From an uncultured Lutibacter sp. (GTDB taxonomy: Bacteria > Bacteroidota > Bacteroidia > Flavobacteriales > Flavobacteriaceae), in contig NZ_CANLRG010000008.1 of NCBI RefSeq assembly GCF_947493565.1, forward strand, positions 1-64,000: a DNA stretch of 64,000 nt, read 5' to 3'. The notes below the pieces were generated by a model, which worked only from the letters and a program-made list of their open reading frames with translations, was not told where the DNA came from and searched no databases. Shown here piece by piece: positions 20,818-26,291 of this stretch. The number at the start of each line of letters is the position of its first letter. The first letter of the stretch is position 1. The translations under genes were made by a program, and so were the position numbers.

Positions 20818-21225
20818 ATGGAAACTAGCGAACTTACCTATAAAAAATTCGAACACAATAAAAGCATTAATGAATTAGAGTATGATACTTTAATTTGGAT
20901 TTCTAGATTTGAATTTATTAAAACAGAATTGGCCTTTTTAAAAAAACTAATTCAATCCAATTCTTTTAAATCTAGAATTCCAAACCTTTATGAACGGATA
21001 CAGCTTTTTATTCAAGAAATTGACATTTTACTAAAAAACAATCAAAGAATTTTACACAAACTAACCGAGCAACATAACAATTTAAGTGGAAAGTTATATT
21101 ATGAATCGTTTCAATTAATTGCTTATGAAAAATTGGCAGAAAAGATTTTTAATTACACTATAACTTATCAAAATTTTAAAATTAGAATTTTTGAATATCT
21201 CGAAAGTATTTTAAAACAAGAATAA
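20818..21225 (+). CDS. Small helical protein, paralogue 1, unknown
   Basis: 135 residues, predicted nearly all helical, cytoplasmic. It shares with the next gene an N-terminal pattern ending in SI-ELHYD / SINELEYDTLIWIS-EFI-ELAFL. I know no named family. It lies behind an FNR-like promoter and so probably belongs to the stress regulon. The pair may be structural or regulatory proteins that form coiled-coil bundles. Confidence 0.6.
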   Translation: METSELTYKKFEHNKSINELEYDTLIWISRFEFIKTELAFLKKLIQSNSFKSRIPNLYERIQLFIQEIDILLKNNQRILHKLTEQHNNLSGKLYYESFQLIAYEKLAEKIFNYTITYQNFKIRIFEYLESILKQE

Positions 21226-21248: not shown

Positions 21249-21692
21249 ATGGAAACCAAAATAAAAAAGGACTGGTTTGGCAGAGAAAAAAGCATCGCCG
21301 AGCTTCACTACGATTCAAAATTATGGATTTCAGAAATTGAATTTATTAATGATGAATTACGCTTTTTAGACAATTTATTAAGCATGTATTTTATAGACTG
21401 TTTAGATTTGGGTCTTAAAAAAAACATTGAAGATTTTGTAAAAAAAATAGCCACTGAAAAGCAATTAATTTCCACATTTATAAATTTAATAAACAAACAC
21501 GAAAAAATATTGGTTGACTTAATTGAAACCAATAGTGTTAAAAGCAATAAAAATTTCTTAGAGTCTCATAAAAAATTAGAACGAGAAATAAATACCTATT
21601 TTAAAAATTACAAAAAACTAAAAAAGGACATTTTTAATACCATTGAAAACATTATGAAGAAAAAAGAACAGTTGAAAATATCTTTAAAATAG
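21249..21692 (+). CDS. Small helical protein, paralogue 2, unknown
   Basis: 147 residues, helical and lysine-rich at the end. It aligns with the preceding protein over the N-terminal 50 residues (KSIAELHYDSKLWISEIEFINDELRFLDNLL against the equivalent in paralogue 1) and shares the spacing of later helices, so the pair arose by tandem duplication. The start is 23 bases after the upstream stop. Function unknown. Confidence 0.6.
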   Translation: METKIKKDWFGREKSIAELHYDSKLWISEIEFINDELRFLDNLLSMYFIDCLDLGLKKNIEDFVKKIATEKQLISTFINLINKHEKILVDLIETNSVKSNKNFLESHKKLEREINTYFKNYKKLKKDIFNTIENIMKKKEQLKISLK

Positions 21693-21987: not shown

Positions 21988-22593
21988 ATGCTTATAATTG
22001 GAATAGCTGGAGGTACTGGAAGCGGAAAAACAACCGTAGTAAATCAAATTTTACATGAATTACCTGTTGATGAAGTTTGTGTAATTTCACAAGATTCATA
22101 CTACAATATTACCACTGGATTATCTTATGAAGAACGTACAAAAATAAACTTTGACCACCCAAAAGCTATTGATTTTGAGTTATTGGTTGACCATTTAAAT
22201 TTATTAAGACAAGGAAAAGTAATTGAACAACCTGTGTACTCATTTGTAACGCATAATCGAACTTCAGATACGCTAATTACTCACCCCAAAAAAGTAGTTA
22301 TTGTTGAAGGAATTTTAATTTTTAATAACAAAGAATTAAGAGATATTTTTGACATTAAAATATTTGTTCATGCAGATACAGATGAACGTTTGATTAGAAG
22401 AGTTAGACGAGATATTGAAGAAAGAGGTAGAGATATAAATGAAGTATTAACAAGATATCAAACCACCTTAAAACCAATGCATCAACAGTTTATTGAACCT
22501 ACCAAAAACTATGCAGATATTATAATTCCTAATGATCGATATAATACGGTTGCTATAGATATCGTTAGAACTGTAATAACTAACAAACTATAG
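21988..22593 (+). CDS. udk: Uridine kinase
   Basis: 201 residues. Walker A GGTGSGKTT at residues 8-16, then VISQDSYY (the uridine-binding DSYY motif) and FDHPKAIDFELL. It phosphorylates uridine and cytidine in pyrimidine salvage. A septum-formation-type gene and the mutase subunits follow in the same direction, the arrangement common in Flavobacteriaceae. Length is normal. Confidence 0.93.
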   Translation: MLIIGIAGGTGSGKTTVVNQILHELPVDEVCVISQDSYYNITTGLSYEERTKINFDHPKAIDFELLVDHLNLLRQGKVIEQPVYSFVTHNRTSDTLITHPKKVVIVEGILIFNNKELRDIFDIKIFVHADTDERLIRRVRRDIEERGRDINEVLTRYQTTLKPMHQQFIEPTKNYADIIIPNDRYNTVAIDIVRTVITNKL

Positions 22594-22599
22594 TTTTTT

Positions 22600-22917
22600 A
22601 TGACATTTCATCAATTAAAAAATAAACCTATCATTAAAATTATTACCAATAGGTATGTAATTATACTTTCCATTTTTGTGGTATGGATGGTATTTTTTGA
22701 TGAAAATTCATTGCTGAATCATCTAGAATTCAATAAAGAAATTGATAAACTACAAAGTGAAAAAGAACATTTTAAAACTGAAATTGAAAAAGATAAAGAA
22801 CTCATAAAAAAATTACAAGATAAAGAACAGTTAGAGAAATTTGCTAGAGAAGAATACTACATGAAAAAAGAGAATGAAGAAATTTATATTATTGAATATG
22901 ATACTTTAAAAAAGTAA
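22600..22917 (+). CDS. FtsB/DivIC-like septum formation initiator
   Basis: 105 residues. One membrane helix (about 18-36) is followed by a coiled coil (about 42-85) and a short extracytoplasmic tail with EKFAREEYYMKKENEEIYI, the conserved end of the family. It would join the divisome complex with FtsL and FtsQ. It starts six bases after udk. Confidence 0.85.
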   Translation: MTFHQLKNKPIIKIITNRYVIILSIFVVWMVFFDENSLLNHLEFNKEIDKLQSEKEHFKTEIEKDKELIKKLQDKEQLEKFAREEYYMKKENEEIYIIEYDTLKK

Positions 22918-22986: not shown

Positions 22987-24342
22987 ATGAGTGACTTTAT
23001 AACCAAAGATTTTAATCCTAGTTCGGCAGCTGCTTGGAAACAAAAAATCCAATTTGACTTAAAAGGAGCAGATTATAACAAAACTCTTTTAACTACAACT
23101 AATGAAGGAATAACTATAAAGCCATTTTACCACTTAGACAATTTTGAAAAGTTAAAGATTCCAACACCTCAAGAAGATTTTAAAATTTGCCAAAAAATAA
23201 CTATTTCATCAGAAAAAGAAGCAAATTTAAAAGCTACAAATGCTATAAAAAATGGAGTCGCCTCTATTAAATTTATTGTTAATCAACCTTTTAACTCCAA
23301 AATACTGTTTAAAAATCTATTAAATAAACAGCTCGAATTCCATTTTCAATTTTATTTTTTAGATGAAACTTTTATCGATGAGCTTTTCAAACTTCTTAAA
23401 AATGAAACCGTTTATTACAATTTAGATATTGTAGGCAATTTAGCTAAAACTGGAAATTGGTTTAACTCATTAACCAATGATTTTAATGTAATAGAAAACC
23501 TACTTCAACAAAACAAAAAACAATTTTTATTAAGTGTAGATGTTAACATTTATCAAAACGCTGGGGCAAATACCGTTCAACAAACAGCCTATACGTTAGC
23601 ACATGCCAATGAATATTTAACCAAATTTGGCGATGATATTGCTCAAAAAATTCAATTTAATTTTGCAATGGGTAGTAATTATTTTTTTGAAATCTCCAAA
23701 ATAAGAGCTTTTCGTTATTTATACAATTTAATTTTAGGAGAATACAACACCAATTCTATTGCACAAATATTTGCTGAACCTAGTCTAAGAAACAAAACTT
23801 TATACAATGCACATGTGAATATGCTTCGAACCACAACTGAAAGCATGAGTGCCATTTTAGGAGGAGCCAATACTATTTCTAATTGTTCATTTGACACCTT
23901 ATTTCATCATCCTAATGAATTTGGAGAACAAATTGCACAAAATCAATTACTAATTTTAAAAGAAGAAAATAATTTTAAAAATGCACAACATATAGTAACT
24001 GATACATACTATATTGAAACCATTACTAAAGAAATTGCAGAAAAAGCATTGGCTATTTTTAAAGATATAGAAAAAGGAGGTGGCTTTTTACATCAATTAA
24101 AAGAAGGAACCATCCAACGAAAAATAGCAGAAAACGCTCAAAAGGAACAAATTAAATTTAATAGTGGAGAGCTTGTTTTAGTTGGTTCTAACAAATACCT
24201 AAATGAACAAGAAAACATTAAAAACAATATAGAAATTAGTCCTTTTATTAAAAGGAAACCGTACAAAACATTAATTATTCCAATAAGTGCAAAACGGCTT
24301 TCTAAAACTTTGGAACAAAAAAGATTGAAAAATGAAACGTAA
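22987..24342 (+). CDS. mutA: Methylmalonyl-CoA mutase small-subunit-like protein
   Basis: 451 residues. The start (FNPSSAAAWKQKIQFDLKGADY) is that of the Flavobacteriaceae small subunit, followed by a TIM-barrel of mutase type (FNFAMGSNYFFEISKIRAFR, ILGGANTISN). It has no cobalamin domain, as is usual for this subunit, which is structural. It overlaps the catalytic-subunit gene by 11 bases. Given the damaged catalytic partner it may no longer serve a mutase. Confidence 0.8.
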   Translation: MSDFITKDFNPSSAAAWKQKIQFDLKGADYNKTLLTTTNEGITIKPFYHLDNFEKLKIPTPQEDFKICQKITISSEKEANLKATNAIKNGVASIKFIVNQPFNSKILFKNLLNKQLEFHFQFYFLDETFIDELFKLLKNETVYYNLDIVGNLAKTGNWFNSLTNDFNVIENLLQQNKKQFLLSVDVNIYQNAGANTVQQTAYTLAHANEYLTKFGDDIAQKIQFNFAMGSNYFFEISKIRAFRYLYNLILGEYNTNSIAQIFAEPSLRNKTLYNAHVNMLRTTTESMSAILGGANTISNCSFDTLFHHPNEFGEQIAQNQLLILKEENNFKNAQHIVTDTYYIETITKEIAEKALAIFKDIEKGGGFLHQLKEGTIQRKIAENAQKEQIKFNSGELVLVGSNKYLNEQENIKNNIEISPFIKRKPYKTLIIPISAKRLSKTLEQKRLKNET

Positions 24343-25789
24343 AGATTTTTCTAAACTAGCAATTAGCACTCAGCGCACTAAGGAAGTTAATTTTAACCAT
24401 GAAAATTATGTTGCTGGTATTGCGCCATTTTTAAGAGGTATTCATTCAACTATGTACGTAAAAAAACCTTGGACAATTATACAAAGTACTCGTTTTTCAA
24501 CAGCAGAAGAAGGTAATACCTTTTATCGCAAAAACCTAACCGCTAATCAAAAACATATTTCGGTTGTTTTTGATTTAGCAACAAATCTCGGTTATGATTC
24601 TGATTATGAGCATGTACAAAATTATATTGGAAAAAATGGGATTGCCATAGATTCTGTAGAGGATATGAAGATCCTTTTCAAAAAGCTTCCTTTAGAACAA
24701 TTAATTGTTTCTATATCTATAAATAAAGCTGTTTTACCCATACTTGCCTTTTACATAGTAGCTGCTAAAGAACAAAATATTGATGAGAACTTACTTTCTG
24801 GCATTCTTCAAATTGATGAGCTTACATTGCATAATACTACTATGCAACTACCTAAGCCTCCTATGAGAATAATTTCAGATATTTTGGATTACACCAATAA
24901 ACATCTGCCTAAATTTAATACTATATCAATTTCAAACTATCACTTACAAAAAGTAGGAATTCTACCAGAAATTGAACTAGCTTATACTTTAGCAAATGGT
25001 TTAAAATACCTTAAAGCTGCAATTAATAGCGGTGTAGATATTGATTCATTTGCTACAAAATTATCATTTTCTTGGAACATTGATAGGAATCATTTTATTG
25101 AAATTGCTAAAATGAGAGCTGCTCGTATGCTTTGGGCTAAAATAGTAAAACAGTTCAACCATAAAAATCAAGAATCTTTAGCTTTAAAAGTACATTGTCA
25201 AACTCATAACTGGAGTTCAACTAAACAACACCCTTTTGATACTATTACTGAAACCACCATTAAAGCCTTAACGGCAGCTTTTGGAGGTGCACAAAGTATT
25301 GATACCAATATTATTGACAACTCCAATGAATTATCCGAAGATTTTTCTGATAGAATTGCTCTTAACACACAGCTTTTTATACAAGAAGAAACAAATATTA
25401 CTAACACTGTTGATCCTTGGGCAGGAAGTTCATTTGTTGAAAAACAAACCCAAGAAATAACCACCAAAACTTGGGCTTTATTGCAAGAAATTGAAAAATT
25501 TGGAGGGATAAATAAAGCCATTGAAAATGGAATTCTTAATATACAAGTTAAGTCAAATATCAATCTTTCGATACAAGAAGACAACAAGTTAATACGAAGA
25601 AATCAACTAAATAATCTAACGCAATTAAAAGCTTCTAGAAATACAACTGAAATATCTGAAGCTCTCAATAACTTAGCAGCTTGTTCCAAAACTGGGAACG
25701 AAAATTTATTAGAATTAGCAATAATTGCTGCCAAAAAAAGAGCCACTTTAGGAGAAATATCAAATGCATTAGAAAACGTATTTGAATAA
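24332..25789 (+). CDS. Degenerate methylmalonyl-CoA mutase catalytic domain
   Basis: 485 residues aligning to the TIM-barrel part of the large subunit, but ending before the cobalamin domain, which is a separate gene. The scaffold is well kept (FSTAEE, FDLAT, GYDSD, ISIS-YH, EIAKMRAARMLWAK, LALKVHCQT, VDPWAGS). Key positions are changed: the usual RPWTIRQYAG is KPWTIIQSTR, so the substrate-stacking Tyr89 equivalent is Ser; DLATHRGYDSD is DLATNLGYDSD; and the segment between the conserved Gln and the Met-Arg is shortened. The His of YH (His244 equivalent) remains. Not frameshifted; probably not a normal mutase. Confidence 0.75.
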   Translation: MKRKDFSKLAISTQRTKEVNFNHENYVAGIAPFLRGIHSTMYVKKPWTIIQSTRFSTAEEGNTFYRKNLTANQKHISVVFDLATNLGYDSDYEHVQNYIGKNGIAIDSVEDMKILFKKLPLEQLIVSISINKAVLPILAFYIVAAKEQNIDENLLSGILQIDELTLHNTTMQLPKPPMRIISDILDYTNKHLPKFNTISISNYHLQKVGILPEIELAYTLANGLKYLKAAINSGVDIDSFATKLSFSWNIDRNHFIEIAKMRAARMLWAKIVKQFNHKNQESLALKVHCQTHNWSSTKQHPFDTITETTIKALTAAFGGAQSIDTNIIDNSNELSEDFSDRIALNTQLFIQEETNITNTVDPWAGSSFVEKQTQEITTKTWALLQEIEKFGGINKAIENGILNIQVKSNINLSIQEDNKLIRRNQLNNLTQLKASRNTTEISEALNNLAACSKTGNENLLELAIIAAKKRATLGEISNALENVFE

Positions 25790-25820
25790 AATTTAGCAAT
25801 CTTTTTAACAAATTCTAATA

Positions 25821-26291
25821 ATGTTCAATAAAAAACCAAACGATCAAGAGTTTAAAAAAGCTACCGATTTAGCCAATACATTTGCAGAATTAGAAGGCAG
25901 AAGACCTCGTATTATGATTGCTGAACTTGGGTCAAAATCACAAGATAATAATTTAAAAATAGTAGCCACAAGGTATGCCGATTTAGGATTTGATGTTGAT
26001 ATTGGATTTTTATTTCAAACTTCAAAAAAATTAGTGAAACAAGCTATTGAGAATGATGTACATTCGTTAAATATTTTATTATCAACAACCAATCACAAAG
26101 TATTTATTCAACAAATTATTGATGAGTTAAAATTGTATGGAAGAGAAGATATTATGGTTGTTATTCATGAAAATATTCCTTCTCAAAATTATGAGTACTT
26201 GCTTCGTACTGGTGTTAAATTTATTATCAGTTCCAAAACAACAACTTCTAAAACAGCTATTGATATTTTAACCTCTTTAATTAAAGGTTAA
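25821..26291 (+). CDS. Former cobalamin-binding domain without the B12 ligand
   Basis: 156 residues, the C-terminal domain of the mutase large subunit as a free-standing protein. The frame is clear (GRRPRIMIAELG, YADLGFDVDIGFLFQT, AIENDVHSL, GREDIMVV), but the cobalt-ligand motif DGHDRG reads KSQDNN, so the His is lost. The later B12-binding loops are replaced too: the usual SSLAAGH is LLSTTNH, the GG of GGVIP is HE in HENIP, and GPGT is SSKT. It is 31 bases from the catalytic-domain gene. The fold is probably intact but cannot bind adenosylcobalamin in the normal way. Confidence 0.75.
   Translation: MFNKKPNDQEFKKATDLANTFAELEGRRPRIMIAELGSKSQDNNLKIVATRYADLGFDVDIGFLFQTSKKLVKQAIENDVHSLNILLSTTNHKVFIQQIIDELKLYGREDIMVVIHENIPSQNYEYLLRTGVKFIISSKTTTSKTAIDILTSLIKG

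Follow-up and report, generated by a model that had tools for sequence, protein, structure and literature searches.

What becomes of a coenzyme B12-dependent mutase whose cofactor-ligand and radical-forming residues are gone is the question raised by a methylmalonyl-CoA mutase locus of an uncultured Lutibacter sp. (Flavobacteriaceae), situated in a stretch of 64,000 nucleotides (nt) of the contig NZ_CANLRG010000008.1 (assembly GCF_947493565.1, positions 1 to 64,000), hereafter called the window. Behind udk and a DivIC-family gene, the forward strand carries three open reading frames (ORFs), all of them open, for a short MutA-type small subunit of 451 amino acids (aa; 22987..24342), a dead catalytic-type chain of 485 aa (24332..25789), whose start overlaps the small-subunit gene by 11 nt, and a detached B12-binding-like domain of 156 aa (25821..26291). 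We favour, with reasonable confidence, the reading that the mutase of the udk-divIC locus lost catalysis beside a complete second mutase and has been kept as a non-catalytic two-chain protein, the job of the pair being probably other than catalysis; for retention, the support is good in the lineage and moderate in the window itself. The small subunit matches PF01642 at 3.6e-69; the catalytic-type chain matches PF01642 at 3.3e-148 (494.9 bits, above the cut-off of 22.1) and TIGR00641 (521.9 bits, above 303.8); and the B12-like piece matches TIGR00640 at 3.6e-30 (104.7 bits, above 57.45) and, under the curated gathering score of 32.1, PF02310 (29.2 bits, 8.8e-07). The full-length equivalog NF006944, with a cut-off of 876 bits, is missed by both the catalytic chain (601.7 bits) and the B12-like chain (138.6 bits). 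Judged by these profile scores, beside which there are sequence matches in the PDB, there is no doubt that the window genes descend from the methylmalonyl-CoA mutase superfamily, and coordinates and matches agree with a preliminary description of the window that had placed three mutase-type ORFs behind udk and a DivIC-like gene.

The same description had named four motif changes and the removal of the Tyr89 equivalent, all of which are borne out by alignment. In the catalytic-type chain KPWTIIQSTR replaces RPWTIRQYAG (24464..24493, forward strand), with Ser52 at the position of Tyr89, a column that was anchored on the Y89F chain 5req, which shows Phe there. In the B12-like piece, on the same strand, KSQDNN replaces DGHDRG with the loss of the cobalt-ligand His (25935..25952), LLSTTNH replaces SSLAAGH (26076..26096), and HENIP replaces GGVIP (26166..26180). 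Neither of the two features by which an active mutase is recognised, the DxHxxG motif with its cobalt-ligand His and the Tyr89 within RPWT[IV]RQYAG, is found in the window. The cofactor His, Tyr89 and the adjacent Arg are absent from all 13 degenerate copies of the genus and present in 17 of 17 aligned intact rows, and the large chains of the 12 other degenerate copies hold no DxHxxG-type segment. An alignment of 32 intact relatives, drawn from 70 intact chains at the small-subunit loci described below, has 301 columns with a conservation of 95% or more, and the catalytic chain differs in 94 of them; the B12-like piece keeps 71 of the 115 columns that do not vary among 17 intact Lutibacter rows. 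A sequencing error behind the motif losses was rejected, since differences in 94 of 301 conserved columns go far beyond a single insertion or deletion. The earlier statement that the genes are free of frameshifts and internal stops holds for each ORF taken alone; against the intact relatives, however, the split itself (25787..25820, forward strand) is a newly gained stop codon together with a net shift of frame in the linker between the two domains, and an ATG inside this linker is the start of the B12-like ORF.

A search of the window genome (3.1 Mb in 37 contigs, given as 100% complete) for an intact mutase and B12 enzymes, as had been proposed, was successful. Another contig carries an intact mutase that keeps DGHDRG, RPWTVRQYAG, SSLAAGH and GGVIP and has its own small subunit of 604 aa, with MeaB nearby on the opposite strand; judging from domains and length, a frame of 1164 aa, in which B12, MeaB and mutase domains follow in this order, was taken as IcmF-like, and one of 898 aa that contains a B12 domain was taken as MetH-like. 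Given the motif-intact mutase, MeaB and the IcmF-like protein elsewhere, the window mutase is a redundant paralog. That the cell no longer uses B12 was considered as well and is rejected in view of the same three genes. All 13 degenerate Lutibacter genomes have such a second mutase, about 710 aa long and with its motifs intact; among the 20 genomes with an intact locus, a second mutase is found in 11 (Fisher p 0.005, uncorrected for relatedness and with some genomes incomplete).

The locus was then followed through all 38 genomes of the genus, the one of the window included. The large gene is whole and intact in 18; in two more (G034 and G004), where it lies in pieces at the ends of contigs, it is judged to be intact, which makes 20; 13, with the window, have a degenerate locus; in G025 the contig is cut off just past the start of the large gene, and four genomes (G013, G015, G027, G031) show no readable native locus. 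The degenerate large chains form a graded series, in which the window stands with 451+485+156 aa, eight others have 333-392 aa, and four have 205-208 aa and one common shape; no B12 domain is present at the twelve other degenerate loci. The overlap of 11 nt between the small and large genes is found in the window and in all four of the shortest forms. With six intact rows as its root, the large-chain tree places the window outside the other twelve degenerate chains, which make one clade (support 100/99), as do the four shortest (99/99; 97/98 without the N-terminal arm and 77/84 on the 44 columns of the arm alone). The window is thus the least reduced form and, on this tree rooted on intact copies, the deepest one. 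In the small-subunit tree the degenerate rows lie on one side of a weak branch (68/8), so that one change suffices, and the twelve are held together at 96/85; the rpoB tree, which covers 31 of the 38 genomes and has many weak forks, requires a switch between the intact and the degenerate state three times or more. A convergent origin of the 205-208-aa form, hinted at by the small-subunit tree, was considered and set aside, as the large-chain tree gives one clade.

What the shortened chains have kept best lies in three islands. The truncated chains stay near the intact consensus at residues 1-40, 261-280 and 361-380 only, where 62-81% of the consensus is kept, compared with 0-42% in the other segments of 20 residues. 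The corresponding parts of the window chain are the N-terminal arm (residues 1-43; 24332..24460), the strand and helix EIAKMRAARMLWAK (residues 240-281; 25049..25174) and TVDPWAGSSFVE (residues 354-376; 25391..25459), all on the forward strand. Within these limits, which were chosen after viewing the conservation of the truncated chains, the window keeps 44 of 52 columns versus 163 of 249 elsewhere (p 0.008). The short form of L. flavus keeps 4 of the 94 columns lost by the window and 61 of the 207 kept by it, deleted columns being scored as lost. The small subunit has changed in a related manner: 34 reference rows, 20 of them from Lutibacter and 14 from elsewhere, define 160 conserved columns, of which the window keeps a fraction of 0.931, the eight mid-length genomes 0.78 and the four shortest 0.81, the loss being greatest at residues 301-325 within 251-325, with a further dip at 401-425. 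In the alignment of the two paralogous chains the region 251-325 corresponds, as a rough match, to the stretch deleted from the large chain, which points to both chains having changed together.

Structure models made with AlphaFold2 from 34-row alignments (mean predicted local distance difference test score 72.3 each) show the two ends of the series. The window catalytic-type chain is modelled with eight strands. In the model of the 208-aa chain of L. flavus there are three barrel strands with their helices, which the alignment identifies as the last three of the eight; the segments of strands two to five have been deleted, part of the first remains but does not form a strand in the model, and confidence is lacking at residues 26-58. 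Both models have mutase chains as their best matches in the PDB, those of the window being mutase large chains.

Selection was assessed with a custom codon likelihood model (GY94, F3x4) as omega, the ratio of the nonsynonymous (dN) to the synonymous (dS) substitution rate, with the truncated groups fitted first on the small-subunit and then on the large-chain topology. For the four shortest large chains omega is 0.150 and 0.146, respectively, and for the eight mid-length chains it is 0.066 on both topologies, a value of 1 being strongly rejected for either group. The most direct test comes from pairs in which both members are truncated. The two least saturated of them, G036-G018 and G032-G012, give a large-chain omega of 0.134 (dS 1.34, twice the log-likelihood difference 122) and 0.165 (dS 0.93, 56); G020-G035 gives 0.099 (dS 2.28), and G010-G022, which is saturated (dS 7.5), 0.056. 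When such pairs were simulated neutrally for half of their dS, the three cases gathered 10.6, 22.6 and 27.3 stop codons on average, with no stop-free run among 2000 for each. The small subunits of G036-G018, G020-G035 and G032-G012 have omegas of 0.138, 0.064 and 0.084, that of the saturated G010-G022 is 0.007, and three intact pairs range over 0.030-0.116. For the window genes, the dN/dS that had been proposed as a check was obtained on the window branch against eight intact rows: it amounts to 0.062 for the catalytic chain, 0.112 for the B12-like piece and 0.029 for the small subunit, each rejecting 1 as a branch average and none differing significantly from the background. The loss of catalytic residues combined with purifying selection, by which a pseudoenzyme is recognised, is therefore found for the lineage, the figures for the window alone being such averages.

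From these data a mechanism may be proposed. Catalysis would have been lost in Lutibacter genomes that have a second, complete mutase, and the three islands, namely the N-terminal arm, a strand with a helix, and one loop, would hold the large chain to the small subunit. The pair would still form a MutAB-like heterodimer, with the small subunit as its working part and the dead large chain as a folding or binding partner, in the role of a scaffold or a regulator and not of an enzyme; this assignment of roles is a guess to which we commit ourselves. The detached B12-like piece, for whose retention the window gives weak evidence, is probably on its way out, since the other twelve loci have no B12 domain.

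Several observations weigh against this reading. The constraint on the shortened large chains (0.099-0.165) is several-fold weaker than on the large chains of three intact pairs (0.014-0.042); it is accordingly relaxed several-fold, yet far from absent. dS is saturated in several comparisons. The window branch is a single sequence that averages the time before and after the loss, so that selection after it is inseparable from selection before it; in the B12-like ORF the estimate of 0.112 versus 0.022 is not a significant difference, and the differences from G033 by codon position (56, 35 and 66) have a mild third-position skew. The association of the small and large chains is deduced from the retained islands and the gene overlap, and the overlap is kept in just four of the eight mid-length forms. 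The location of the islands at the interface of the two chains is likewise a deduction; in the human enzyme the dimer interface is formed by the substrate domains, according to PMC10356863. Further, the large-chain tree of the short forms conflicts with the small-subunit and rpoB trees: the four shortest are not grouped by their small subunits, and forcing them together is rejected (approximately unbiased test, p-AU 0.0008). The large and small genes have therefore not always moved together, which points to recombination or to transfer of the short form.

A last point of this kind comes from outside the genus, where a first scan of genome contigs with the catalytic chain gave no match. A second scan, with the small-subunit alignment, confirmed 558 loci, the best 80 of which were followed up. 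Four lie on contigs of the genus; 68 of the other 76 have a large gene with DGHDRG in the fetched flank, and for the eight having none there the whole genomes were searched. In two of the eight (L130, L137) the large gene is present and interrupted by the contig end, two others (L148 and L187, assemblies of 1.4 and 1.9 Mb) are not judgeable, and the remaining four, three Confluentibacter and one Aureibaculum (L176, L180, L182, L169), have the native small subunit beside udk-divIC and no native large chain; besides IcmF-like matches, the only mutase large chain of these genomes is that of the second mutase. When the order as a whole was sampled, the small subunit was matched at 1e-90 by 50 of 296 genomes; among the 30 loci of the matches listed, 27 of the 29 besides that of the window have a native large gene no farther than about 1.5 kb away, the other two being L239, seemingly the Aureibaculum locus again, and L260. 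The mode of action of the orphans may differ from that of the Lutibacter pairs.

With these orphans in view, the alternative to be taken most seriously is that the second mutase has made the large chain and the B12 piece dispensable, that both are simply decaying, and that only the small subunit or the expression of the operon is maintained; we consider it unlikely. It would account for the stop and frame shift that split the window gene, for the shortening in the relatives, for a large-chain omega that is several times that of the intact pairs (the saturated 0.056 apart), and for small subunits persisting alone in Confluentibacter and Aureibaculum. However, pairs with both large chains truncated remain open at an omega far under 1 where the simulation expects many stops, the four forms of 205-208 aa have a common shape, and the three islands are conserved. 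The initial suggestion of a retained pseudoenzyme instead of simple decay is thus supported, mainly by the purifying selection on the shortened chains of the 12 relatives, which stand beside small subunits that are likewise constrained. It is less probable still, though conceivable, that the small subunit acts as an alternative partner tuning the intact second mutase, with the large-chain remnant being incidental: the four orphan small subunits keep 0.953 of the conserved columns, as though a full large partner were present, and the three from Confluentibacter are constrained at an omega of 0.097. However, in each of the four orphan genomes and in that of the window the second mutase has a different small subunit next to it, of 604-615 aa, and the loss in the small subunits of the shortened Lutibacter copies lies mostly at the residues that roughly correspond to the large-chain deletion, as though the chains had changed together.

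That the window pair is a B12-independent protein binding or converting acyl-CoA, the other suggestion made at the outset, is very improbable. The window chain has a predicted eight-strand barrel and keeps the Tyr-His pair of the active site, which we take to be Y243/H244. However, the His of this pair is lost in all 12 other degenerate copies, 94 of the 301 intact-conserved columns are changed in the window chain itself, and the shortest form is modelled with three barrel strands out of eight, so that the suggestion finds no support for the lineage.

The retained non-catalytic pair may be set beside three known systems. Like MutAB (P. shermanii 1req, M. tuberculosis 6oxc), it consists of two homologous chains with a recognisable TIM-barrel and B12-like domain; unlike MutAB, it has a split large chain without the cofactor-ligand and radical residues, reduced to 205-208 aa in relatives. 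In the P. shermanii enzyme the cofactor and a substrate analogue are described as bound by the alpha chain only (PMC6257451, PMC9974510). The MutA-type inactive small subunit of bacterial mutases is already an inactive partner chain, whereas here the formerly active chain is also without catalytic residues, so that the two would be a pair of pseudoenzymes. In 2-hydroxyisobutyryl-CoA mutase (4r3u) the catalytic-type and B12-type parts are on separate chains, as in the window; however, 4r3u was named a mutase by its depositors, while the window has lost the motifs and owes its split to a stop and a frame shift relative to intact relatives.

In the titles and opening lines of abstracts, with partial coverage of the literature, no work on a degenerate mutase pair in Flavobacteriaceae was found. 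The chances seem to us evenly balanced that a B12 mutase heterodimer has here become a complex in which both chains are pseudoenzymes and the role is new and not catalytic, and that the genus shows a graded series leading from the intact enzyme, by way of the split form of the window, down to a fragment of about 205 aa with the partner-holding segments only. If so, the short small subunit of Flavobacteriaceae would have a function outlasting the enzyme, for which the Confluentibacter and Aureibaculum orphans may be compared. Pseudoenzymes are usually met as finished products, and one genus here appears to hold intermediate steps toward a non-catalytic complex, in which selection marks the smallest set of segments retained; it would make a clean system for asking about the role of a non-catalytic mutase subunit. 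In annotation, mutA/mutB-like matches at the Flavobacteriaceae udk-divIC locus do not imply a working B12 mutase.

Concerning the surroundings of the locus, its upstream markers in the window are the uridine kinase gene udk (21988..22593, forward strand; PF00485 at 1.4e-41), which has 81-93% identity across the other genomes of the genus showing the locus, and the DivIC/FtsB-like gene (22600..22917, forward strand; PF04977 at 2.3e-13). Directly behind the shortened large chain, nine of the 12 other degenerate loci carry a gene of 400-403 aa in forward orientation, and the three of these that were scanned (L072:3812-5023, L073:4070-5275, L082:4124-5329) are of the PALP family, dependent on pyridoxal phosphate; the window has no such gene there. 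A second copy of udk (75%) lies at G060:C64:21631-22233 and is followed at 22559-22699 by a frame of 61 aa that is similar to the N-terminus of the native small subunit; the two may stem from contamination, the assembly being a metagenomic one. Upstream in the window, 20818-21225 and 21249-21692 (forward strand) encode adjacent similar small proteins of 135 and 147 aa, which resemble tandem paralogs and match no Pfam family above the cut-off. An Rfam scan of the window for RNA elements gave two tRNAs only, and promoter-like sites are not above chance (21 versus 27.8 in shuffles). Terminator-like sites, by comparison with shuffles, are above chance (5 versus 1.7); two of them are at a tRNA and its 3' flank on the forward strand, and one lies within the catalytic ORF at 25681-25701.

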